This document shows, one piece after another, positions 10,590 to 31,497 of a DNA stretch of 33,264 nucleotides. The stretch comes from Micrococcales bacterium (lineage in GTDB: Bacteria; Actinomycetota; Actinomycetes; S36-B12; GCA-2699445): contig PAAU01000035.1 of the NCBI GenBank assembly GCA_002699445.1, positions 1-33,264 on the forward strand, read 5' to 3'. The translations under genes were made by a program, and so were the position numbers. Under the pieces are notes generated by a model. That model searched no databases and was not told the DNA's origin. It saw nothing but the letters and a program-made list of their open reading frames with translations. Each line of letters opens with the position of its first letter. Within the stretch, counting starts at the first letter, position 1.

Positions 10590-10981
10590 GATGTACCTGA
10601 CGACTCCTGGCGCTCATTCGACCCTCAGCAACAGCGCCACTATCAGCGAAAAGGTCCGTTAAGCAGGCGGCCTCGATGGGCTTCATCAGCCATTCCGGGC
10701 AGCCGTTATGCGAGAGGTTGCAGAGGAGAGGCACGGAACAGAAGGGCATGTCATGCCTCGGCTGCTGGTGATTCCTTGTGGTCGTGCGGTGCGACTTCTG
10801 GTTTTGTGCCCCTGCTAGCGCGGAAAGGGGCGTGATGCAGGCGAAGCTAAGTGTGGGGTGGCGATTGGGTGTTTTTTCCTCAAGGGATCCTCAAGGTTTC
10901 GTCTTTGTAGTGGCCAGCGGAGAGTATGGGCTGGTTATGTGGGTAACTGTGCGGCCTTTCGTGTGGACTCAGGGTGGTGTG
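10590..10981. other. Gene-poor stretch at the start of the accessory island
   Basis: No supported gene. A frame reads upstream from the beta-helix gene to 10778, but the extension has no ribosome binding site or recognisable sequence. A 60-codon minus-strand frame (10567-10749) has no known motif. From 10945 onward the sequence is shared with the inverted paralog at 23410-23598, so the conserved block includes the promoter-proximal leader. Confidence 0.5.
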
Positions 10982-13592: not shown

Positions 13593-14714
13593 ATGTTTCG
13601 TCTCTTGTTTGTTGCGTTGTGTGTTGTTGCTGCCGCTTTGGTGTTGCCGTCGGCCAGTAATGCCGACCCTTTTCCTCCCCCCGTCGGGGAGCCTTCGAGG
13701 TACACGACGTGGGGTAAGGGGGATAAGCAATGTGAACCGTGGCATGTGCCGCACACGAACTGCAAAAAGATTAGACATCGAGGATTAGAGTTTCGGGGCG
13801 GCAAAGCTCACAGAGTGAATGTGACAAAAGCAGATCTGCGTAACTCCAGTTTCGTTTGTTCAAAGATGCGTAACGCAAAAGGCGGTGCCACGGTCTGGAA
13901 AAACTCGGATTTCCGCGGCGCATCGATACCGGGCTTTAAAGCCCGCAAGAGTAATTTGTCGAACACAGATTTTTCGCCAACAAACTGCAACAAGAAGCCA
14001 AACAAGAAGCGGGCTCTGCGGGCGCAACCCCCATGTATGCCCGATTGCACCTCAGCGAATCTGAAAGGTGCGGACCTGAGATCTGCGGACCTGAGCGGCT
14101 CGAACCTGACCGGCGCGGATCTGAGCAAAGCGAACCTGACAGGTGCAAACGTGAGCGGCTCGAACCTGACCGGCGCGACCTTGAGCGGCGCCAACCTGAC
14201 AGGTGCAAACGTGAGCGGTTCGATCCTGAAGGACGCGCGGCTAAATCAGACGGTGCTATTCAACGCGAATCTGTCATTTTCGGGGACCCTGAGCGATAGG
14301 CAACTTGACGATGTGTTGTTCTTTCAAACAAAAATGCCTGACACGACCATCCGAAGCGACAATTTCATTCCAAAACCCAACGGTAATTTCAAAATCCTGG
14401 AAGATACGAACCTGAGGGGTGTAGACCTGAGCGGCGTAAAACTGATAGGTGCGCGCATCTCAGACTCGGACCTGACCGGCGCGAACCTGTCCGGTGCGGA
14501 CCTGTCCGGTGCAGACCTGTCCAGTACGAACCTGAGGGGTGTAGACCTGAGCGGCGCAAACCTGCGTAACGCGGACCTACGCTGGGCGAACCTGGTCCGC
14601 CCGGACCTGAGAAATGCGAACCTGACCAACGCGAAAATGCCTGAGAACACGGATGAATTGACCACCTGCAATACGACGATGTCGAATGGAACCATCGATA
14701 ACACCGACTGCTGA
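13593..14714 (+). CDS. Secreted pentapeptide-repeat protein
   Basis: A 373-residue exported protein. Residues 1-24 are a signal peptide (MFRLLFVALCVVAAALVLP, cleavage near SNA-DP). A cysteine-containing N-terminal region (about 25-140) includes CEPWHVPHTNC and an NVTKADLRNSSF start of repeats. Two blocks of A(D/N)LSxA pentapeptides follow (about 152-230 and 285-350), which should fold as right-handed quadrilateral beta-helices, separated by a non-repeat insert (SDRQLDDVLFFQTKMPD). A cysteine pair lies near the end. Cytosolic members include gyrase-protecting DNA mimics, but export rules that out here; function is unknown. GGTGGG lies before the ATG. It is flanked on both sides by same-orientation copies of the 78-nt repeat. 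Confidence 0.85.
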   Translation: MFRLLFVALCVVAAALVLPSASNADPFPPPVGEPSRYTTWGKGDKQCEPWHVPHTNCKKIRHRGLEFRGGKAHRVNVTKADLRNSSFVCSKMRNAKGGATVWKNSDFRGASIPGFKARKSNLSNTDFSPTNCNKKPNKKRALRAQPPCMPDCTSANLKGADLRSADLSGSNLTGADLSKANLTGANVSGSNLTGATLSGANLTGANVSGSILKDARLNQTVLFNANLSFSGTLSDRQLDDVLFFQTKMPDTTIRSDNFIPKPNGNFKILEDTNLRGVDLSGVKLIGARISDSDLTGANLSGADLSGADLSSTNLRGVDLSGANLRNADLRWANLVRPDLRNANLTNAKMPENTDELTTCNTTMSNGTIDNTDC

Positions 14715-16863: not shown

Positions 16864-18756
16864 ATGTTGCGGTCAGGTGCCTTCGACAAACCCATTCGCT
16901 GCGCAAGTGCAATTGTTCTGGTGATCGTGTCGGCACTTGTTGCCACATCCTGTGGCAACACGAGTGATGACGTTCGCACCGTCGAGGTGAACGCGCTTTG
17001 GTATGGCGTTAACCAGGAATCTGGTGAGTCTCAGGGCGGAGTTACGCCTGTTCTTATCCGGTTCTCGGCCCGAAGTAATGAACTCGACATTGATGTAGCG
17101 GACCAGAAGTCGTCAGGTGCGGGTTCACAGTGGGTTGCAGCATCATGGTTGGGCGCGACCACGAGCTTGCTGGACCACACAGTTGATCCGGCTACGGTCC
17201 GACTGATGTTTGAAATTTCAGAATCTATCGACGGGCCATCTGCAGGTGCGCTTATGGCCGTTGGGGTCGCAGCAGCGTTGCGTGGAGACTCGATTCACCC
17301 AAGGATGGCGATGACGGGAACCATTGAAGTGGATGGTTCCATTGGCGGTGTGGGTGGACTGCCTCAGAAAGTAAAAGGCGCTGCTTCCGCCGGTGTAGAG
17401 ACCGTTCTCATTCCCAGCGGACAACGAACGGTCCAGGCGTCAGGTTCTGGCGACTTAGTCGACTTGGTCGACATGGGCACGGAGCTTGGCGTTACTGTTC
17501 GTGAGGTTGACGATATTGCTCAGGCGTATCAGGTCATGACGGGTAAGGAATTGGATGGGGCGGATCTTGCCCCGGTTTCCGATCCGCTCACGGATAGTTT
17601 TGAGAAGAAACTGCAGGTGCTGACTCGAAACCGGTTAAAGGCTCTTGAAACCACGATGAAGATACTCGATGACCGCCAACCACGTGCGGCAGATCCCGCC
17701 TCCAACTGGTTTCAACGAGCCATCGATGCCCAGGAAGAAGCTAAGCGTGCCGCAGCGTCCGGAGACTCAACAGTTGCCTACGAATCAGCCATGACCGCCA
17801 GTCTGGTGGCGCAGCAGGCGTTGTCGACGATGGCTGTCAAGGATGCCATTCGCGCACAAGGCACGGCGTCGGTACGTGACCAGATATTGAGTAGGGCGCA
17901 ACGGCTGGATGATCGTGCGCGCAAAACGACGCGTGATCTAGCGAGTAGTTCCGAATTCTCGGAACCTGCGAGGGCTTTGGCCTTCGGCGACGCCCTCGCT
18001 TGGATCACGACCGGTGGTCTTGTTGCTTTCCTCACGGCCAATAGTTTGGAAGCGTCATCTGCGAAGCCAGCTCTGCTGAAAGAGGCTGGTGCGGCCCTTG
18101 CGCGCAGCGAGATATATTTCGAGTCGTCTCGAGATGCTTTGGTGTTGTTGAATGAATTGCGTGACGGTAGGAAACCTGCTGAAACAAACCATGTCGCGGT
18201 CGCGGATCTGATGTGGGAAGCCGGCAGTGCATCACTTGCCTACCTTGACGACGTCGTCCTCAACCGCATTTCGGGGGACACACCCTTATCGACCTCAAAG
18301 CGCAGCAATTTTTTGGAATCTCCCGATTCCGATTATGTATATGTGACTCAGTCAGAGGCTTATCTAGAGAAACTCGTCGAAGGACTTAATGCTTCTGCTG
18401 CAGCGACGGTGAAGTCTGCTGTCGCGCTGGAACGTTATGTCTACACCGCCTACTTGATTGCCAAGTACGAAACTCTGCAGTCATCCCTGGACATAGATGG
18501 TTACGTGAGCGGACCCGGTAACAGCGCACAACTTGATGAGTATGTGACGCTCGCCCAGGAGCATCTCGACGAGTTGATGTCCGAGACTGCAGCGGTGGGT
18601 ATTGACACATCGTATTTGTACCTGCTCGCCGAGTGGGGCACGTCCCGACACAGCCGGGGTAAGGCCAGCGGTAACGCACTTGATGAAACATATGCACTCG
18701 CATTCCTTTGGCGCGCATTCGTGATCGGCCAGATTCATCGTCTCGTATCGGGCTAA
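16864..18756 (+). CDS. Lon-type (S16) serine protease domain lipoprotein without ATPase
   Basis: A 630-residue predicted lipoprotein. Residues 1-30 form a signal peptide with lipobox VATSC (Cys30). Residues about 40-235 are a Lon proteolytic domain with the catalytic Ser in DGPSAGALM (S126) and Lys in GGLPQKVKGA (K169). The 43-residue spacing equals that of E. coli Lon S679 and K722. FEISESIDG, MTGTIEVDGSIGGVGG and VETVLIPSGQ are also typical. No AAA+ module is present. The remaining 390 residues are mostly alpha-helical (Ala/Glu/Leu-rich) with one hydrophobic stretch (ALAWITTGGLVAFLT). It would act outside the membrane on unfolded or specific substrates without ATP; the substrate is unknown. 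The ATG at 16864 was chosen because it gives a proper signal peptide; a TTG at 16807 is less likely. Confidence 0.85.
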   Translation: MLRSGAFDKPIRCASAIVLVIVSALVATSCGNTSDDVRTVEVNALWYGVNQESGESQGGVTPVLIRFSARSNELDIDVADQKSSGAGSQWVAASWLGATTSLLDHTVDPATVRLMFEISESIDGPSAGALMAVGVAAALRGDSIHPRMAMTGTIEVDGSIGGVGGLPQKVKGAASAGVETVLIPSGQRTVQASGSGDLVDLVDMGTELGVTVREVDDIAQAYQVMTGKELDGADLAPVSDPLTDSFEKKLQVLTRNRLKALETTMKILDDRQPRAADPASNWFQRAIDAQEEAKRAAASGDSTVAYESAMTASLVAQQALSTMAVKDAIRAQGTASVRDQILSRAQRLDDRARKTTRDLASSSEFSEPARALAFGDALAWITTGGLVAFLTANSLEASSAKPALLKEAGAALARSEIYFESSRDALVLLNELRDGRKPAETNHVAVADLMWEAGSASLAYLDDVVLNRISGDTPLSTSKRSNFLESPDSDYVYVTQSEAYLEKLVEGLNASAAATVKSAVALERYVYTAYLIAKYETLQSSLDIDGYVSGPGNSAQLDEYVTLAQEHLDELMSETAAVGIDTSYLYLLAEWGTSRHSRGKASGNALDETYALAFLWRAFVIGQIHRLVSG

Positions 18757-18823: not shown

Positions 18824-19778
18824 ATGAGAGCAACCGTCGCACCATCGCCCCATTTGTCGTAATGATGACTCTCGGATTGATTCTGGGTGCGTGTTCGGCA
18901 AGCGAAGACTCCTCCGAAACTGCAGCGATAGACACTAACGACAAATCCGCGGTGGCAGAGACTGACGATTGGTGGTGAATTGCCGGATCATGCGATGCGT
19001 CAGCTATCGCTCCGGTTCCTCAGTCGGATGACTTTATTTTTGCCGTAGATGAGGACGATACGCTGCGCCGCTGGACCGCTCCTAGCGATTACCCCCCACC
19101 TAGCGGTCGGGCGGCCGGTGAAGTTGAAGCTTGGGTTGATTTGTCAAGCGAAGTTGAGTCCAGCGGCGAACTTTCGGTACCGCACGTGATCTATTGCCCG
19201 CTCTGCAGTCTGCAGACGGTATTGACCAAGCCCTCAGCCCACTGTTCGAAACATTGATTTCCGGGAGTGCCTCTGGCATTGCACCCAAGGAGGGCGGATT
19301 CAATATCGAGGGGCTGGCGACGGATGGAAAGAGTCTCCTCATCGGACTCCGTTCGCCCGTGGCAAATGGCAAGGCATGGATTCTTCGTCTCGCGAATCCT
19401 GCGGCAATCGTTGCTGACGTTGACGAGAAGCCTCAGATAACTGTGAAAGCGCAGGTTGACCTTGGTGACGGTCGAGGAATTCGCGCAATGACGGAATCTG
19501 ACGATGGTTGGATTATCGTGGGTGGCCCTATTAATGATCCGCCGCCCAGCTTTGGACTTTTCCAGTGCGACAAGGGTCCGACTGCGAAAAGTATTGACTT
19601 CACCTTTGCGGGCGGCACCCGTCCCGAAGGTATCGCGTCCCAGGATTCCAACGTACTCATGGTCAGCGATGATGGCTCCGTGCTGCGCAATGGGGTCGAA
19701 TGTAAATCCGAAAGTCCTGCCAATCAATACTTTCGGGCCACCTCAGTTCCGGAGAATCAGTTAGTGGTGACTGACTGA
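18824..19778 (+). pseudogene. DUF3616 lipoprotein pseudogene
   Basis: The remains of an exported DUF3616 protein. ATG at 18824 follows an AGG-rich ribosome binding site, but the frame shifts after four codons. The shifted frame reads RRTIAPFVVMMTLGLILGAC, an N-region and lipobox, to an in-frame TGA at 18976-18978. The same frame then continues with DDFIFAVDEDDTLRRW, the first DUF3616 strand, to about 19170. A further shift enters the frame from about 19176 (FGTARDLLPALQSADG, then GIAPKEGGFNIEGLATDGKS, LLIGLRSP and GKAWILRLANP) to 19778. The middle block expected for the family (the IEGA ... SHGRNKDG region) is missing, so a deletion probably accompanies this shift. At least three lesions make function very unlikely. 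Confidence 0.78.
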
Positions 19779-20038
19779 TTGGCACGGTCACCTCGACTCA
19801 CATCCGCTAGGACAGCAACTGTGGTTTTAGATGGGCCCATTCACCAAACAGAGGACGGCCGAGCTCAGGCCACAGAATCGGCTTTGGAGACTATTTCGCT
19901 GGATCGATTGCGTGCGGATTTTTGGGGCTGTTATATCCGGATGACGACCTCTCGTGCAATGGTGACGGCAGTTTCCCCGGTAACCGTGAAGCGTCCCTTG
20001 GTTGCTGAGCATCTGGGGGCGTGTTGCCGTTGCAGTAG
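19779..20038. other. Gap between the DUF3616 pseudogene and the pentapeptide gene
   Basis: No gene seen. A segment around 19925-19965 weakly resembles 21410-21452 on the far side of the pentapeptide gene (both contain CGACC, CCTCTCG and a GTGACGG run). It might be a decayed flanking repeat, but this is uncertain. Confidence 0.25.
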
Positions 20039-21262
20039 CTACTTAGCGGAAGGGCACGTGGAGCCATTACCCTTTGTGCCGTCTGGCCAGCGAGTGCTGT
20101 CGTTGCAGGTGGCGTCGGACAGGTTGGCATCGCTCAGCTCGGCGTAGCGCAGGTTGGCATCGCGTAGGTCGGCGCCGGATAGGTCGGCGCCGCTCAGGTT
20201 GGCATCGCGTAGGTCGGCGTCGGATAGGTCTGTATCGCGCAGGGTGGTGCCGCGCAGGTTGGCGTCGAGCAGGTCAGCGTCATTAAGGTTGGCGGAGCTC
20301 AGGTCAGCATCGCGGAGGTTGGCGTCACGCATGCCGGCCCCGCTGAGGTTGGCTTCTTTAAGGTTGGCGGAGCTCAGGTCAGCGTTGCGCAGGTCGGCGC
20401 CGCTCAGGTCGGAATCGCGCAGGTCGGCCCCGCTGAGGTTGGCTTCTTTAAGGTTGGCGGAGCTCAGGTCAGCGCGGGATAGGTTAGCCGAGCTTAGGTC
20501 AGCGGACCTCAGGTCAACACGTTTAAGGGCGGCGCCGCTCTTATCGCAGCCGGACCAGTCCAATTTTGGCGCCGCTGATGCATCGCACTTAGTAGGGCAT
20601 CTGTTGTTGGGTCCAAGTTGGACCGGCTGGCTATTGGTCCACGTCGTCTCAGCGCTACAGCGACTGTCGGTCAAGACAGCATCGCGCACTAAGCCCTGGC
20701 GTTTCAGCTCGTCCAAACTCGGGCATGAAACTGGCCCCGGACATGACCCTGTTGTTCCTGATTTTACGCGCTGCGCTACGTAAGGGTCGCGATATAGATC
20801 GGCGTCCGAGAGGTTGGCGCCGGACAGGTTGGCGCCGGACAAGTTGGCACCAAGTAGTTTCGCGCCGGACAGATCCGCGTCGGATAGGTTGGCGCCGGAC
20901 AGGTCGACGCCCCATAGATAAGACCAGCGCAGGTTAGCTCCGGACAGGTCCGCGTCAGACATGTTCGTGCCAGTTAGGTTCGCCAAACGATTCGCCTTGT
21001 TAGTCAGGTTGACGCCGCGCAGATTAGCCCCGGACAGATCGGCGCCGCGCAGGTACTCGCCACGCTTATCGCAGCCAGACCAATCCACTCCTGGCGCCGG
21101 CGGCGCATCACACTCCTCAGTAACCGCCCCTGCTTCGCGTTCAACATCCTGGCCCGAGTCAGAAGATCCGCAAGCGCCCGCAATACCCACCACCAAGGCA
21201 AGCGCAGACGGTAACAATAGGCGTTTCAAGCGCCCTTGCGACTGCCCATACTGATAGCGCAC
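20039..21262 (-). CDS. Pentapeptide-repeat lipoprotein
   Basis: A 407-residue predicted lipoprotein. Residues 1-32 are a signal peptide (RLKRLLLPSALALVVGIAGAC) with lipobox IAGAC. Two pentapeptide cassettes follow, each opened by the same module: CDAPPAPGVDWSGCDKRG (about 51-68) and CDASAAPKLDWSGCDKSG. The first cassette covers about 70-150 and the second about 240-380, both of A(D/N)LSxA or A(D/N)LRxA units. A cysteine-containing insert lies between them. The duplicated DWSGCDK modules indicate internal duplication. The start is GTG at 21262, preceded by GAGAGG 5 nt away. It differs in anchor and N-terminus from the secreted pentapeptide protein at 13593. Plus-strand frames over the repeats are artefacts. 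Confidence 0.86.
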   Translation of the reverse strand: MRYQYGQSQGRLKRLLLPSALALVVGIAGACGSSDSGQDVEREAGAVTEECDAPPAPGVDWSGCDKRGEYLRGADLSGANLRGVNLTNKANRLANLTGTNMSDADLSGANLRWSYLWGVDLSGANLSDADLSGAKLLGANLSGANLSGANLSDADLYRDPYVAQRVKSGTTGSCPGPVSCPSLDELKRQGLVRDAVLTDSRCSAETTWTNSQPVQLGPNNRCPTKCDASAAPKLDWSGCDKSGAALKRVDLRSADLSSANLSRADLSSANLKEANLSGADLRDSDLSGADLRNADLSSANLKEANLSGAGMRDANLRDADLSSANLNDADLLDANLRGTTLRDTDLSDADLRDANLSGADLSGADLRDANLRYAELSDANLSDATCNDSTRWPDGTKGNGSTCPSAK

Positions 21263-23936: not shown

Positions 23937-25364
23937 ATGGACCACCACTCATCTTCGACACATGCCGATCGAACTCTCAACGTACCGCTGCTTGCAGTAA
24001 TGACCATCGTGATTCTTTATGGAATCGAAAATGCAGCGAGCATGGCTCAAATTGGCTGGGGATCAATAACAGCGTATGTGACTGCTGCGCTGTTTATTCT
24101 CATCCCAATCGGAGTAATCTCTGCCGAGTTAGCAAGCGGATGGCCTCACGATGGGGGGCTGTACCTCTGGGTGAGGGAAGCGTTTGGCCCGAAGTTCGGA
24201 TTCTTCGCTCTTTTTCAGCAATGGGTTGCGTGGGTCTTCACTATTCCTACCGTATTTACCTTTGTTGCAGTCACCGCTACATACGCTTTCGACTCGAGCC
24301 TGCAAGACAATCAGATTTATGCCGGCCTGACGGTTGTAGGGATCACTGTTATTGCGACCGGACTGAACTTCTTTGGCGTAAGGAAGTCGGGAATCGTTAG
24401 TGTGTTGAGCATTGTTTTCCTCGCAGTTATTCCCACTGTCACAATTTTGACGCTTGCGATTCGAGCGGTCATCCAAGGTCAAGTACAAGGAAACTTTGAG
24501 ACTAGTGATTTGTGGCTCTTTGGTGATTCTTCAGCATTTAAGTGGATTATCGCGGGTGTTAACTCATTTTTAGGACTCGAGATGAGTGCGTACTTCCTGA
24601 AACGGCTTCGGGATCCACAGCGTCAGTATCCGCTCGTTTTGATACTGGCTGGAATTCTGACGTTTACTTTCCTAACCCTCTTAACACTAGCGGTATTTCT
24701 GTTGAGCCCAAGCGGTTCAGTCAGCCTGACTGCCGGGATCATGGAGACAATCACTGCGTTATTTGATGCGCAGAATATCTCCTATCTTGTACCTGTTCTT
24801 GCAGCCCTCATCGCTTTAGGGGGATTGCTGAAGTCGAGCACAATAGTTATTGGACCGGCTGTCGGTCTACTTGCCAGTGCTCGTCACGGACATCTTCCGT
24901 CGAGGTTGGCAAGGGTGAACAAACACGGGGCTCCTGTAGCGATTTTAGTTATGCAAGGAGTCATCATTTTGATTGCTACGCTCGCGTTTGTCGTGCTCAA
25001 AAACGTCCAGACAACCTTTTTCCTGTTGTTGATCCTCTCGGTAATTCCCTACATGATCGCGTATCTCTTTATGTTCGCAGCTGCGGTTAGGCTGCGCTAC
25101 ACGCAACCAGATGTGCCTAGATCCTTCCGAGTGCCGGGTGGCAAGATTGGAATTTGGATCATCTCAATCATTGGTGTTGCGGCTTGCATCCTGGTTCTAG
25201 TGGATGGACTAAGTCCTCGATCTCTCCCCTCGGATGGTCGAGGGCTGACGGTAGTCTTAATACCGATAATCACTATCATTTTATGTATCGCCCCATTTGT
25301 CATAGATCGTCGAAATTCCCGGACCGATCCAATCGACCCGGAGTTTATTGACGAGGAACCCTAG
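23937..25364 (+). CDS. APC family amino acid permease (GadC/glutamate-GABA antiporter-like)
   Basis: A 475-residue membrane protein with about 12 helices. The N-terminal part shows the features of the APC glutamate:GABA antiporter group: VILYGIENAASMAQIGWGSI, SAELASGWPHDGGLYLWV and REAFGPKFGF. A conserved LGLEMSAYFLKRLRDPQR follows TM6, and the charged C-terminus is cytosolic. It would carry an amino acid by exchange or proton symport; the substrate is not readable. It stands 178 bp upstream of the Pls-like synthetase in the same direction, so substrate supply or exchange for that pathway is plausible. Codon use is less GC-rich than its neighbours. Confidence 0.87.
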   Translation: MDHHSSSTHADRTLNVPLLAVMTIVILYGIENAASMAQIGWGSITAYVTAALFILIPIGVISAELASGWPHDGGLYLWVREAFGPKFGFFALFQQWVAWVFTIPTVFTFVAVTATYAFDSSLQDNQIYAGLTVVGITVIATGLNFFGVRKSGIVSVLSIVFLAVIPTVTILTLAIRAVIQGQVQGNFETSDLWLFGDSSAFKWIIAGVNSFLGLEMSAYFLKRLRDPQRQYPLVLILAGILTFTFLTLLTLAVFLLSPSGSVSLTAGIMETITALFDAQNISYLVPVLAALIALGGLLKSSTIVIGPAVGLLASARHGHLPSRLARVNKHGAPVAILVMQGVIILIATLAFVVLKNVQTTFFLLLILSVIPYMIAYLFMFAAAVRLRYTQPDVPRSFRVPGGKIGIWIISIIGVAACILVLVDGLSPRSLPSDGRGLTVVLIPIITIILCIAPFVIDRRNSRTDPIDPEFIDEEP

Positions 25365-25542
25365 GCCTAGTCGGAGTCATTGCAACTGGCTTCAGCTCAC
25401 ATTTGTTGAATCTGGCTCATTGAGTGGCTAGAGCTTTAATAAGCACATGCGAACACGCTAAATGGATATGAAAATACTAATATGAGGTGAGCGTCGAAGC
25501 GGGCGAGGCATCTGCCTTACGCCTGCGGAGAGGGGCGTCCTT
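25365..25542 (+). promoter_or_regulatory. Intergenic region with candidate promoter of the synthetase operon
   Basis: An AT-rich stretch with TACTAATATGAGG around 25474-25486 could hold a -10 box, but no convincing -35 is seen. GAGGGG lies 7 nt before the synthetase ATG and is its ribosome binding site. Confidence 0.3.
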
Positions 25543-28500
25543 ATGGACACCTTGAGCGACCTAGATGGTCATTTGGCGAGTGATACGGTTCCAAATGGAA
25601 CGCTGATCGAAGTCCTTCATGCAACAGTCGAAAGATTCAAAGAACGGCCTGCCATTGAAGGAGTTAATGAGCTCATCAGCTACGGAGAGCTGTGGAATCG
25701 CGCGAGAGATGTAGCGGACGAACTGCGATCTATTGGAGTAGGACCGGGCGAACGAGTAGGGGTCCGGGTCGCCAGCGGCACAACCGAGCTGTACATCGCG
25801 ATACTCGGGGTGCTGATGTCGGGGGCGGCATACGTCCCAGTTGATGTTGACGATCCGGAAAGTCGGGCTACCCAAGTTTTCGGAGAAGGAGACGTCTGCG
25901 CAATTCTCGAGGGGTCGGTTTCGGTTAATACCTCCCGCATGGAGATGGGACTATCGCTGCGGAATATTCGTGACGCACGCGCAACTCATGCGGATTTATC
26001 GCCCATCGACGATGCCTGGATTATCTTCACCTCTGGATCCACCGGAGTGCCAAAGGGAGTCGCCGCATCTCACCGGAGTGCTGTCGCATTTATTGCCGGC
26101 GAGGCGGCCCTTTGGAGTGTTGGTGAGGATGACAGAGTCCTAGCGGGTCTTTCGGTGGGCTTCGATGCCAGTTGCGAGGAAATGTGGTTGGCGTGGGCTA
26201 ACGGTGCCTGTCTCGTGCCCGCACCCAGAAACATTGTTCGTTCGGGCGTGGATCTTGGACCGTGGTTGGCAAGCCACAAGATAACCGTGGTCTCGACAGT
26301 GCCGACGCTGGCGGCGATGTGGGCTGATGATGCGTTGAGCGGCGTCCGTTTGATGATTTTTGGGGGAGAGGCCTGCCCCGAACAGTTGGGGTGGCGTATC
26401 GCGGCTGAGCGCGATGTGTGGAACACCTACGGGCCTACCGAGGCAACCGTGGTATCGACTGCAGGTCGGATCCTTCCCGATGAACCCATCACGATTGGTT
26501 GGCCACTCGAGGGTTGGGAGTGCGCGGTTATCGATGAAAACGGTGAACCCGTGCCGGTTGGTGAAGAGGGTGAACTGGTCATTGCTGGAGTAGGTCTAGC
26601 TCGTTATCTTCGCAGTGACTTGGACGAGGAGAAATATGCCCCATTACCTAGTCTGGGTTGGGAGCGGGCATATCGCTCTGGTGACATGGTTCGCGAGACT
26701 CCTTCCGGCTTTGCCTTTGCGGGGCGTACCGATGACCAAGTAAAAATCGGTGGTCGGAGAATCGAGCTGGGCGAGATTGAAGGGGTCTTAACGTCGTGCT
26801 CCGGTGTAGCGGCAGCCGCCGTCGTGGTGCAAAAAACCAAGGGCGGTAACTCGATGCTGATCGGTTATGTAACTGGTGATGTTGATATTGATGAGATCCG
26901 CCGAGATATCTCCGAACGGCTTCCGGCCTCGCTTGTGCCATTGCTGTGTCACCTGCCGGAACTCCCACTAAAGAGTTCGGGTAAGGCCGATAAGGCAGCG
27001 CTCCCGTGGCCGCTGCCTTCTGTGGCAGGAGATGACGCCGATTGGGATCCGATTCAACGTTGGGTTGCTGATCAAATAGCCGACCAACTCGGCCCGGTGC
27101 CAATGACACCAGAAAGTGACTTTTTCGAGATCGGCGGAACATCTGTCACGGCGGCAAAATTAGTATCGGTTCTGCGCCAAAAGTATCCCTCGGTAGCGGT
27201 TGCCGACGTATACCACTACCCCAAGATTGCCGACCTTGCCGACCGAGTTGAAGAACTCGCCGGCCCGGCTGAAGAACGAAGGAAGATCCCGGTTAGGCAC
27301 GCTAAGCGGTGGGCCGCAATAAGAACTTTCGGCATTTTGCTGCTGTTACTTTTCACGGTGCCGCAATGGGTCGTTATCGTCTTGGCCTACAACGAAGGAT
27401 TCGGTGGTGAGGATGGATATGGCCCTGGGTTCGTAGAAAACGCTTTAGGTCCGGCCGTCTCGGGTACATGGGTATGGGCTTGGATATCCATAACTGTCCT
27501 CTGGGTACTAATCGCGAATGCTCCACTTCGATCGATGGTCTACTTGCTAGTTCGTCGTCTCATGATGCGCAACGTCAAGCCGGGAAGATACCCGAAACAT
27601 GGTTGGATGAGTGCGAAAATTTGGTTTTTGCAGAAACTCGTAGTAACTCTCAACGTGAATCAAATCGCCGGTACGCCCTGGACTAACCGGCTTGCTCGAT
27701 GGAGCGGCGCAAAAGTTGCAGATGATGCCCGTTTAGTGGAGTTACCACCAATAACAGGTCTTATGACGGTCGGTTCCAAAGCCACTATCGAGGAAGAGGT
27801 CGATACCACTGGTTGGGTAATAGATGGTGAGGAACTGGTCATCGCGGAGTACATCATCGGTGCCGGCGCACGAGTTGGGACTCGGGCGCTTCTGATGCCA
27901 GGCTGCAATATCGGTGAGGGTGCAGAGATCTTGCCGGGTAGTGTCGTTGACCGTGAGATCCCAGCGGGGGAGCTGTGGGGTGGTTCCCCCATCGCGTCAT
28001 TGGGTGCCGCGGGCGAAACCTGGCCTGAAGAAGATCCAGAGCGAGAAGCCGCGACGATGCCCGGGAAGTTCATGTACGTAGTGGGCTTAGTCCTCTTGAG
28101 CCTACTGCCCTTGCTCGCTGCCTTACCTGGTTTGTTCTTGTTGATAAAACTTAATCAACCAGATCAAATGCATCCCGCCGGTCTATTCCTGTATTGGTTG
28201 GTTTGGGCCATCCCGATATCGCTGCTGTGGATTGTGATGTACAACCTCTTGATCGCGGCAACTCTGCGCATATGTATGCGCCTAATCAAGCCGGGGTTCC
28301 ATTCCGACTACGGGGGCGCCGCATGGGCGTACTGGTTTACACGTCAGGTCATGGTGGAAGCCCACATGTTTTTACGGTCTATCTTCTCGAGTATTTACAC
28401 AGCCAGTTGGCTTCGACTTCTGGGCTTAAAGGTAGGTAAAGGAACAGAAGTTTCGATCACTAGTGGTCTGAATTCGTACGTAAGTTTCGAAGATGGCAGT

Positions 28501-29445
28501 TTCGTAGCGGATGATGTTTTGTTTGCTACCGTTCGCCACAATCGAGGTTGGATGCACGTTCAAGGCATCAGTGTTGGTAGTAGGACCTTCCTGGGCAACA
28601 GCGTCATCGTCAAGGGTGGAACCGAACTCGGTGATGACAGTCTGGTTGGAGTATTGTCCAGCGCCCCACAAAAGCCGCCCGATGGTTCATCTTGGCTTGG
28701 GATGCCTCCCTTAGAGCTACCTCGGGTGCGAGAAAATGTCGATGTTTCCCGAACCATGGACCCTCCCACGAGGCTAAAAGTGGGTCGATCCATAGTTGAT
28801 GGGATTCGGATCTTGTTACCTGAAGTGATCTCGGTGATGCTTGCGACACTCGTGATATTTGCCGCGGATAGCATCGCCGACTCCACGGGTAGTACTTGGT
28901 GGATGGTTGTCGCGCTGCCATTTATCTTGTTGGGGGTGGGCCTACTTTCTTTGGTGGTCATGGTCATCTTGAAATGGGTACTGATGTTCCGTTATCGACC
29001 CGGCGGTCACCCGCTGTGGTCGTTCTTCTGTTGGCGAGACGAAATCATCAATGTGACTGGCGAAGTCGTTGCGGGTCTCTGGATGTTCCGATACGCGTTG
29101 GGAACTCCGATCATGCCCTGGTACTTCCGAGCGATGGGATCGAAGGTTGGTAAGAATCTGTGGTGCGACATGATCAATGCCACGGAATTCGATGTTATTA
29201 CTCTCGGCGACAACGTGAACCTAAATGCGGGTTCGTGTCTTGAAACTCATCTATTCCACGATCGCGTCATGAAAATCGGACCAACATACATCGGTGACGG
29301 TGCAACCCTTGGACCAAACTGCGCCGTTCTACCCGACACGGTTGTCGGTGAGGGTTGTCGAATCGGTGGTCGCTCAGTAGTGATGCGAGGTGAGACTCTG
29401 CCTCCTAATACTTCATGGCAGGGTGCCCCTGTGGTGTCTGCATGA
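25543..29445 (+). CDS. Pls-like membrane nonribosomal peptide synthetase (A-PCP-6TM-LbH)
   Basis: A 1,300-residue single-module NRPS of the epsilon-poly-lysine synthase (Pls) type. The adenylation domain (about 30-500) has the core motif IIFTSGSTGVPKG (about 160-172), FDAS (207-210), YGPTE (296-300) and the A10 lysine K481. The carrier domain has its phosphopantetheine serine in GGTS (S534). Three repeats follow, each of two TM helices and a soluble domain: TM near 590-615 and 643-662, 842-870 and 880-908, 1086-1108 and 1119-1150. The soluble parts carry hexapeptide-like left-handed helix stretches (GDGATLGPNCAVLPDTVVGE near the end). There is no condensation or thioesterase domain. By the Pls model, the C-terminal repeats condense the tethered amino acid with free amino acid into an isopeptide homopolymer. 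Hand-read pocket residues suggest a basic amino acid. Confidence 0.93.
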   Translation: MDTLSDLDGHLASDTVPNGTLIEVLHATVERFKERPAIEGVNELISYGELWNRARDVADELRSIGVGPGERVGVRVASGTTELYIAILGVLMSGAAYVPVDVDDPESRATQVFGEGDVCAILEGSVSVNTSRMEMGLSLRNIRDARATHADLSPIDDAWIIFTSGSTGVPKGVAASHRSAVAFIAGEAALWSVGEDDRVLAGLSVGFDASCEEMWLAWANGACLVPAPRNIVRSGVDLGPWLASHKITVVSTVPTLAAMWADDALSGVRLMIFGGEACPEQLGWRIAAERDVWNTYGPTEATVVSTAGRILPDEPITIGWPLEGWECAVIDENGEPVPVGEEGELVIAGVGLARYLRSDLDEEKYAPLPSLGWERAYRSGDMVRETPSGFAFAGRTDDQVKIGGRRIELGEIEGVLTSCSGVAAAAVVVQKTKGGNSMLIGYVTGDVDIDEIRRDISERLPASLVPLLCHLPELPLKSSGKADKAALPWPLPSVAGDDADWDPIQRWVADQIADQLGPVPMTPESDFFEIGGTSVTAAKLVSVLRQKYPSVAVADVYHYPKIADLADRVEELAGPAEERRKIPVRHAKRWAAIRTFGILLLLLFTVPQWVVIVLAYNEGFGGEDGYGPGFVENALGPAVSGTWVWAWISITVLWVLIANAPLRSMVYLLVRRLMMRNVKPGRYPKHGWMSAKIWFLQKLVVTLNVNQIAGTPWTNRLARWSGAKVADDARLVELPPITGLMTVGSKATIEEEVDTTGWVIDGEELVIAEYIIGAGARVGTRALLMPGCNIGEGAEILPGSVVDREIPAGELWGGSPIASLGAAGETWPEEDPEREAATMPGKFMYVVGLVLLSLLPLLAALPGLFLLIKLNQPDQMHPAGLFLYWLVWAIPISLLWIVMYNLLIAATLRICMRLIKPGFHSDYGGAAWAYWFTRQVMVEAHMFLRSIFSSIYTASWLRLLGLKVGKGTEVSITSGLNSYVSFEDGSFVADDVLFATVRHNRGWMHVQGISVGSRTFLGNSVIVKGGTELGDDSLVGVLSSAPQKPPDGSSWLGMPPLELPRVRENVDVSRTMDPPTRLKVGRSIVDGIRILLPEVISVMLATLVIFAADSIADSTGSTWWMVVALPFILLGVGLLSLVVMVILKWVLMFRYRPGGHPLWSFFCWRDEIINVTGEVVAGLWMFRYALGTPIMPWYFRAMGSKVGKNLWCDMINATEFDVITLGDNVNLNAGSCLETHLFHDRVMKIGPTYIGDGATLGPNCAVLPDTVVGEGCRIGGRSVVMRGETLPPNTSWQGAPVVSA

Positions 29446-30029
29446 TCGGACTTCCGGAAGAGCGAACGTCGCTACTCATAGGGGATCCACAGGTTATATC
29501 GGTGCACCAGACTATGCCGCTAGTCGCACACGATAATCCCGATGAGTTGGGTCAGTTGCCGAAGGTTTACTTGGTCAGCGCAGATGTGACAAAACTCAAC
29601 TCGGATCAACTCCGTGCAGCAACTCGAATCGCCTGCAAAGAAAAAGGCGCAATGGGCGGTTCACGCGAGCACCAGACTTCCCGGTCTTATCGGTTCCCCT
29701 TTGCGTTATTTGCTGTCCACTCCGATTCCGTTGGTATCGATATCGAATTTGTGGACCCTTACGACCCCGTTTTTGCCGAATCCATTTGCACCCCAGCAGA
29801 ATGGTCCAAGAGTCAGACTCGTCCCGAAACGTCTCTCGAAGTTGCCGATGTTTGGTCCTCGAAGGAGGCGTTGGCGAAAGCTCTCGGTGACGCGGTGAAA
29901 TACGATCCGAGGCGATTGCCGAGCTTGGCGCTGACCCCAGACAGTGCAACGGGTGCATGGCACACTGCGAGGATAGACGTACCCTTCGGATACACCGGAT
30001 GGGTTGTGTGGAAACATGAGAATGCGTAA
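29442..30029 (+). CDS. Sfp-type 4'-phosphopantetheinyl transferase
   Basis: A 195-residue enzyme that attaches the 4'-phosphopantetheine arm of CoA to carrier-protein serines. It carries the superfamily signatures VGIDIEFVDPYD (Mg-binding Asp/Glu) and VADVWSSKEALAKALG, with an SREHQTSRSYRFPFAL segment before them. The start was set at the ATG overlapping the synthetase stop (ATGA), which implies coupling to it. Its likely target is S534 of that synthetase, so the operon brings its own activation. The N-terminal part is shorter than in Sfp. Confidence 0.9.
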   Translation: MIGLPEERTSLLIGDPQVISVHQTMPLVAHDNPDELGQLPKVYLVSADVTKLNSDQLRAATRIACKEKGAMGGSREHQTSRSYRFPFALFAVHSDSVGIDIEFVDPYDPVFAESICTPAEWSKSQTRPETSLEVADVWSSKEALAKALGDAVKYDPRRLPSLALTPDSATGAWHTARIDVPFGYTGWVVWKHENA

Positions 30030-31497
30030 GCGCCGTAGCGATCTGCTTGTTACCGTAGCGATTTGCTCGGCCGTAGTGGTTGTTGGTTGTTCCTCGAACT
30101 CGGGCTCTAGGTCGGCGCCGGGGGTGGCCGTTTCTGGATCGGCATCGACCTCGGTAAGTTCGGCTGAAGCTATCGATTTGGATCCGACACCTCCCAAGAG
30201 ATCAGCAGCCAAGGGCTTGTCCAAAGTTCGCAAATGCTCCGATCAAAAACGAACGGAGTGCGCAACGCTTCGGGTGCCGTTGAACTACGCAAATGCCGGT
30301 GGTAAGAAGCTTTCGCTTCCGGTGCGCTGGTCGACTCGCGCTGGTACGAATGCCCCTACACTGCTGTACCTCAATGGTGGGCCTGGGCTAGGTAACAACA
30401 GACAGTTTCTGAAGAGCACGCTCAACAAATTGCCAAAAGTGGCAAAAAACTATCGAGTCGCGGTTATCGAGACACGAGGTACTGGTGACACCGCACTCGA
30501 TTGCCCGAAATTGCAGGCCGATCCGGACGCGGTCGAAGACGTCATGCCAATGCGTCCTAATCAGATCGAAGGGTGTGGGAAACGGATTGGGGAGAAGCGA
30601 AAGTTCTATACAACAGAGCAGACCATTGCTGATCTGGACCGTTACCGTCGCGCTTTGAGAATTTCCTCTTGGGCGGTCATGGGCTTCTCCTACGGGACAT
30701 TTGAAGCACAACGTTACGCGATCGCATATCCAGCAAGAACCGACACGCTTACTCTAGACGGGGTGGTGCGGCAGGATGGGGGAGACGCCTTTTATACCCC
30801 GGCATTGCACGAGACCGGTCGAGTGCTACGTGAAGTCTGCGCCGAAAAAAACTGCGGCTACGATCCCGCAGCGGATCTGAATAAAATCGTTGTCGAGGGT
30901 ATGGATGGTGTCGCTATCTTCAACGCGCTTTTGTTTGCAACATTGAAGCAGCCCTATGTTTACGGGTTAATCAAGGCGATACACAAGGCGGCCAACGGAA
31001 ATAAGCGGCCGTTACGACAACAGATTAAGATCTATCCGGCAGATCCGACGTCAGCTTCGGAATACAGTGTGGGGCTGTTTCTCGCCACAATGTGCACAGA
31101 CATGCGATTTCCATACGGAACATCCAAAGCGCCGCTCAAGAGTCGCCCCGCCGCGATTCGGGAGGGGGTCAATGAGATCAATCCCGCGGCACTGTATCCA
31201 TTCGACCGGACCACTGCTCGAGGGCAGGGACAGATTTCCAACTGCCGACATTGGCCAAGGACTCGCCCGGGTCGATTCACCAACGCAAAGTTCCCGGACA
31301 TGCCTACGCTGGTAATCAACGGTGATTGGGATCTTGCGACTCCCGTATCAGACGCTCGCGCGCAAGCCGCCCGAATTCCGAATTCCCAGATGGTGGTGGT
31401 CCCACGATGGGGTCACGAGACCATTGCCAATCCGTATGGAGCTTCTCAGATCTCTGGTTTTCTTTTGCGGGAAAAGCCGAGCGTGGTAGATCAGTGA
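30016..31497 (+). CDS. Alpha/beta-hydrolase lipoprotein (TAP-like peptidase family)
   Basis: A 493-residue predicted lipoprotein. Residues 1-21 form a signal peptide with lipobox VVVGC. The hydrolase fold shows an oxyanion region LYLNGGPGLGNN, nucleophile elbow GFSYGTFEA (catalytic Ser), catalytic Asp in NGDWDLATPV, and catalytic His in RWGHETI. The C-terminal TAP-like domain (about 390-470) matches the tripeptidyl-aminopeptidase/SlpD-SlpE group of actinobacteria. It overlaps the transferase gene by 14 bp and is probably in the same operon. A role in trimming or degrading the synthetase product outside the cell is an inference. The ATG at 30022 is an alternative start. Confidence 0.85.
   Translation: MRMRKRRSDLLVTVAICSAVVVVGCSSNSGSRSAPGVAVSGSASTSVSSAEAIDLDPTPPKRSAAKGLSKVRKCSDQKRTECATLRVPLNYANAGGKKLSLPVRWSTRAGTNAPTLLYLNGGPGLGNNRQFLKSTLNKLPKVAKNYRVAVIETRGTGDTALDCPKLQADPDAVEDVMPMRPNQIEGCGKRIGEKRKFYTTEQTIADLDRYRRALRISSWAVMGFSYGTFEAQRYAIAYPARTDTLTLDGVVRQDGGDAFYTPALHETGRVLREVCAEKNCGYDPAADLNKIVVEGMDGVAIFNALLFATLKQPYVYGLIKAIHKAANGNKRPLRQQIKIYPADPTSASEYSVGLFLATMCTDMRFPYGTSKAPLKSRPAAIREGVNEINPAALYPFDRTTARGQGQISNCRHWPRTRPGRFTNAKFPDMPTLVINGDWDLATPVSDARAQAARIPNSQMVVVPRWGHETIANPYGASQISGFLLREKPSVVDQ

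Follow-up and report, generated by a model that had tools for sequence, protein, structure and literature searches.

Can a Lon-type protease domain act outside the cytoplasm without an ATPase, and if so, what takes the place of the motor? The question is raised by a gene at positions 16864-18756 (+ strand) of a 33,264-nucleotide stretch of DNA (contig PAAU01000035.1, assembly GCA_002699445.1; the window hereafter) from a Micrococcales bacterium. The reading frame runs uninterrupted from an ATG at 16864 to the stop at 18756 (630 codons plus stop) and, judging from the frame itself, a Pfam Lon_C match (E 5e-12) and long relatives at 28-35% identity, encodes a putative exported lipoprotein of 630 residues in which a Lon-type (S16) protease domain is followed by a helical C-terminal domain. 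A sequence-only reading had described it as an extracytoplasmic Lon domain without ATPase, and we confirm that observation, taken as a whole, as real and far beyond chance.

Read from ATG 16864, the N-terminus is MLRSGAFDKPIRCASAIVLVIVSALVATSC, in which a basic n-region and a hydrophobic core lead up to VATSC, a lipobox-like sequence; a longer start at TTG 16807 is possible and would merely extend the N-terminus ahead of the signal, and since ATG 16864 gives a normal lipoprotein signal peptide we favour it over the TTG. The predicted signal peptide comprises residues 1-29 (16864-16950), with a hydrophobic stretch at residues 14-27 that AlphaFold models as a helix, and the lipobox (16939-16953) ends in the candidate lipid-attachment residue Cys30 (codon 16951-16953). 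VATSC fits the broad lipobox pattern, with Ala (less usual) rather than Leu at position -3, and the cysteine is invariant in all 13 sequences of an order-level alignment and present in 42 of the 53 in a wider one. Among 62 scorable relatives, 61 carry a hydrophobic signal ahead of the Lon domain and about 48 a lipobox cysteine (47 by scoring and one, L091, by eye), while the signals of relatives without a lipobox look type I or anchor-like and are commoner outside Actinomycetota; single family members may be held by a non-cleavable anchor. By its signal and lipobox the window protein classes as a bacterial lipoprotein with predicted lipidation, and a location outside the cytoplasm is supported by sequence and model. 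Both the lipobox and the extracytoplasmic placement of the sequence-only reading thus stand, and neither of the findings that it had named as speaking against them, a cytoplasmic location or a non-cleavable signal, emerged for the window protein.

The Lon portion appears complete. Pfam Lon_C matches residues 123-187 (46.2 bits versus a cut-off of 21.1) and all 53 relatives at E up to 0.01, yet this model spans merely the core of the protease fold, which AlphaFold extends to about residues 38-226 (16975-17541). The model of the window protein (pLDDT 88, pTM 0.88, from a 53-sequence alignment) finds E. coli Lon proteolytic domains as its best PDB matches in Foldseek (E 3e-9, TM 0.71 by target length, about 205 columns). 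A sequence search of the PDB likewise returned Lon domains (best E 7e-9), along with interleukin-8 matches that we take as chance, and NCBIfam gave just partial matches to Lon models, far under their cut-offs. The predicted catalytic Ser126 (17239-17241) lies in IDGPSAG, an A-type signature, and the predicted Lys169 (17368-17370) follows 43 residues later. Because Ser126 was part of the pattern used to scan genomes, its invariance in the scanned set is uninformative, but Ser126, Thr151, Gly152 and Lys169 are also invariant in the 13 order-level sequences, which were gathered by BLAST independently of the motif, and Lys169, Thr151 and Gly152, all outside the pattern, are invariant in all 65 family rows. 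No AAA+ module was matched in the window protein by Pfam or NCBIfam, the N-terminus being taken up by signal and Lon fold and the C-terminus by helices, and no PDZ domain was matched by Pfam in the window protein or found in any of the 53 relatives. The intact dyad with its spacing of 43 and the absence of an ATPase are therefore as first described, and the protein qualifies, by sequence and model, as a member of peptidase family S16 and a putative protease.

A Lon fold that is kept as an exported binding scaffold while its chemistry is lost would be an alternative to a protease. A paralogue, L045 (G045:C379:57-701, - strand), speaks for it, as its catalytic Ser and Lys are both replaced; this possible pseudoprotease runs off the end of its contig, and the genome it comes from is 7% contaminated. 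While L045 suggests that non-proteolytic members may exist, every other row keeps Ser, Lys and Thr151/Gly152, and in most sister pairs dN is lower for the Lon domain than for the helical one, so that we regard an inactive window protein as very improbable.

Which Lon proteases does it resemble? A quick maximum-likelihood tree built from 133 Lon domains placed each group on a single branch, with support of 93 for the helical-domain Lon family to which the window protein belongs (65 rows), 99 for YlbL, 98 for LonA, 99 for LonB and a weak 48 for an exported archaeal family. Profile comparison with the helical-domain Lon family ranked the archaeal family first (E 1e-28), ahead of YlbL (5e-21), LonA (2e-17) and LonB (4e-14), and the exported archaeal Lon-like family is thus, at the sequence level, the nearest S16 group tested by profile. 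LonA (E. coli Lon) shares the P-domain fold, the GPSAG signature and the Ser-Lys spacing, which was 43 in the LonA and archaeal LonB copies that we extracted, but is cytoplasmic and has N-terminal and AAA+ domains, both missing from the window protein, which carries an export signal instead. LonC, whose P domain forms a hexamer, degrades unfolded substrates without ATP (PMC3391209); MtaLonC offers the likeness of a Lon P domain active without ATP (PMC3391209), but is described as soluble and cytoplasmic (PMC9569914), has an inactive AAA-like N-terminal part and is only weakly similar to the window protein (E 0.0045). A 253-residue haloarchaeal 'S16 family serine protease' on a Salinibaculum plasmid (L196, NZ_CP129994.1, 2776-3534) could accommodate neither a large helical domain nor an AAA+ module.

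A further likeness is to YlbL and SepM, established cases of ATPase-less Lon domains that work outside the membrane and have specific targets (PMC6051672, PMC11197336). Like these extracytoplasmic, membrane-held proteins (PMC6051672, PMC11197336), the window protein is predicted from its sequence to combine a Ser/Lys Lon dyad with the lack of an AAA+ module. YlbL and SepM, however, have a transmembrane anchor, a PDZ domain, a C-terminal protease and a Ser-Lys spacing of 45, whereas the window protein has a predicted lipid anchor, no PDZ domain, an N-terminal protease, a spacing of 43 and a C-terminal helical domain. Among YlbL-like copies the spacing is 45 in 21 of 22 and 46 in the other, and the published YlbL dyad S234/K279 agrees with 45 (PMC6051672). 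The SepM model NF041438 reaches 38 bits on the window protein versus a cut-off of 200, and YlbL and the helical-domain Lon family occupy separate branches in the quick tree (99 versus 93). The source genome also encodes a YlbL-like PDZ-Lon gene. The sequence-only reading had implied that an exported ATPase-less Lon is unusual: the feature itself holds, but it is less unusual than implied, as YlbL and SepM are established and a YlbL-like gene sits in the same genome. There are precedents for extracytoplasmic Lon proteases without an ATPase, and it is the combination of lipid anchor, N-terminal Lon domain and helical C-terminus that is a new architecture; together with the A-type site and the spacing of 43, it was absent from Pfam, NCBIfam and the open papers searched.

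That architecture is partly mirrored in archaea. Of 59 genomes around one Micrarchaeota genome, nearly all encode exported Lon-like proteins, and these proteins (L113 and relatives) share with the window protein a signal, N-terminal strands, an N-terminal Lon domain and a helical-looking region behind it, but end in a transmembrane helix, whereas the window protein and most of its relatives lack a hydrophobic tail. This archaeal family may resemble the COG1750 group. N-terminal profiles of the two families align over 169 columns (E 6.8e-29), and C-terminal profiles compared alone gave no match; the full-length comparison runs into the C-terminal regions and scores 209.9 versus 204-207.6 in shuffled, reversed and rotated controls, and this slight excess is a hint of a helical region shared by bacteria and archaea.

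The sequence-only reading had pointed to a 390-residue C-terminal region of unknown family and proposed structure prediction for it. The last 390 or so residues are indeed entirely helical and match no curated family, and the domain (residues 244-629; 17593-18750), modelled alone, folds confidently (pLDDT 90.8, pTM 0.90). Foldseek matched it to no fold in the PDB (the best E was 0.42, and the matches listed had probabilities below 0.2) and to none among viral structure models; no Pfam or NCBIfam family was found for it in the window protein, and Pfam matches across 53 members were single and scattered. We left aside a weak sequence match to AF_1782 (2oo2; E 0.011). Going by the model, we provisionally consider the domain a new fold, as judged against the PDB and viral models and by Foldseek, for which long helical bundles are difficult. 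Comparison of profiles of its two halves detected no internal repeat.

The helical domain is present in nearly all full-length relatives. Small or aromatic residues make up most of its conserved positions (G300, A305-Y306, G333, A377, W616), with a family motif R-A-G-x-A-N-x-x-Y at about 452-460, and these positions include no invariant polar cluster, which fits a binding or scaffold domain better than a second enzyme. Across eight sister pairs, the Lon and the helical domain alike have a dN well under dS, and by this sequence measure both are under purifying selection. Two Planctomycetota-type copies are broken inside the helical domain, L069 by a frame change (10890-10910) and L080 by an in-frame stop (10894-10897), and the rest of the copy is still recognisable (E about 1e-43); fission into separate protease and helical-domain genes is ruled out here, as the break falls within the helical domain.

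We consider it fairly likely that the window protein is a surface-tethered Ser/Lys protease that works without ATP on unfolded proteins or peptides, which the helical domain selects or gates. Sec would export the protein, and lipid on Cys30 would hold it on the outside of the cytoplasmic membrane. ATP is absent there, in keeping with the lack of an AAA+ module. The Lon domain, probably arranged as a six-membered ring as in other Lon P domains, would cut peptides, or polypeptides that are unfolded or flexible. As there is no ATPase for unfolding, choosing substrates and admitting them most likely falls to the helical domain, as a cap, docking surface or gate, in a position analogous to that of a PDZ or AAA+ domain; PDZ may play such a role in YlbL and SepM. 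An ATPase-less Lon domain need not, however, be a general protease, since purified YlbL lacking its membrane segment is inactive in vitro (PMC6051672), and further points against this explanation are that no conserved neighbour hints at a substrate and that the lipobox has Ala at -3.

The protein could instead resemble SepM: its targets would be few, perhaps a single exported peptide or membrane protein, and their cleavage would feed a sensor, with the helical domain as receptor for that one partner. SepM and YlbL are themselves specific (PMC11197336, PMC6051672), and some gene neighbourhoods suit such a role. In five loci the protease gene adjoins a gene for a large membrane protein whose ATPase domain is of the histidine-kinase type; that gene lies downstream at L070, L085, L095 and L106, where the two genes overlap or abut, and upstream and divergent at L050 (HATPase_c in the two cases tested). 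Small lipoproteins that are related to one another are encoded ahead of the protease in 7 loci. The kinase-like protein is a possible sensor partner, but four of the five cases are closely related sister loci, and most loci, that of the window included, have no such neighbour. Patchy presence and paralogues, described below, would also suit a specialised role. We give specific processing a minority chance, worth keeping in view but well behind a tethered protease for unfolded or peptide substrates.

Gene order varies across the family, with no conserved neighbour or operon partner, and among 141 flanking proteins scanned the commonest family, HATPase_c, occurred 4 times. This also bears on the idea, raised in the sequence-only reading, that the enzyme processes or quality-controls nearby repeat proteins of pentapeptide or beta-helix-like type. 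Two exported pentapeptide-repeat proteins do lie within 4 kb in the window (13593-14711, + strand, and 20042-21262, - strand, the second with a lipobox, GACGSS), and a same-order relative, L057, has a pentapeptide lipoprotein as its next gene. Yet the source genome holds about eight pentapeptide genes, most of them elsewhere, which makes the nearby pair weak evidence of a link, and the co-occurrence survey that had been suggested returned one pentapeptide protein among the 141 neighbours and no beta-helix family among the 25 commonest neighbour families listed. The proposed link is not borne out, and a role dedicated to these proteins seems highly unlikely. Directly downstream in the window (18824-19781, + strand) lies what looks like a DUF3616-type lipoprotein gene (Pfam DUF3616 E 1e-11 on 19194-19775), with lipoprotein start and body in different frames and stops between, pointing to a broken gene or assembly errors. 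Further on (23937-31497) comes a series of genes for an amino acid permease, a 1300-residue Pls/PosA-type single-module NRPS (TIGR02353, 519.9 bits versus a cut-off of 423.1), a phosphopantetheinyl transferase and an exported alpha/beta hydrolase, which may form a small locus for a peptide or an amino-acid polymer.

How widely is this architecture distributed? By sequence the window protein belongs to a real family of about 65 relatives in seven bacterial phyla, drawn from 75 loci in a scan of named genomes: Actinomycetota, Planctomycetota, Armatimonadota, Verrucomicrobiota, Lentisphaerota, Myxococcota and Chloroflexota. In the order-level neighbourhood (99 genomes) about ten have long relatives, some holding two or three copies, while a same-genus genome that is 98% complete has no member and strong matches occur in just 8 of 297 genomes of the phylum Actinomycetota, source genome included, indicating patchy presence. 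Two protease copies can stand side by side, as at L034 (10057-13953) and at G185:C2:232726-236501, in tandem in one of these genomes and divergently in the other, which suggests paralogous pairs or hetero-oligomers. Plasmid and phage collections yielded no member, the Rhodococcoides copy as query retrieving only partial Lon-domain matches. Cultured Actinomycetota isolates with a member include Cellulomonas chitinilytica, Rhodococcoides fascians, Amnibacterium setariae and Actinotalea soli; several member records titled Bifidobacterium breve are MAGs whose species label is doubtful. We found no description of the helical-domain Lon family in the largely open-access literature searched.

A wider reading, which we offer tentatively and hold to be somewhat doubtful, is that bacteria and archaea have in common an ancient exported Lon class, in which substrate selection has passed from the AAA+ motor to a helical domain of new fold and of which the bacterial branch is an unnamed S16 subfamily spanning seven phyla. 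Research on Lon has dealt mostly with ATP-driven intracellular enzymes, while the helical-domain Lon family is, by its sequence signs, extracellular and ATP-free. It is widespread and apparently uncharacterised, and its large helical domain is unmatched by curated families or solved structures. The family makes it testable how a Lon domain would choose and admit substrates without a motor, and carriers in culture, in Rhodococcoides fascians, Cellulomonas, Actinotalea and Amnibacterium, bring such tests within reach.
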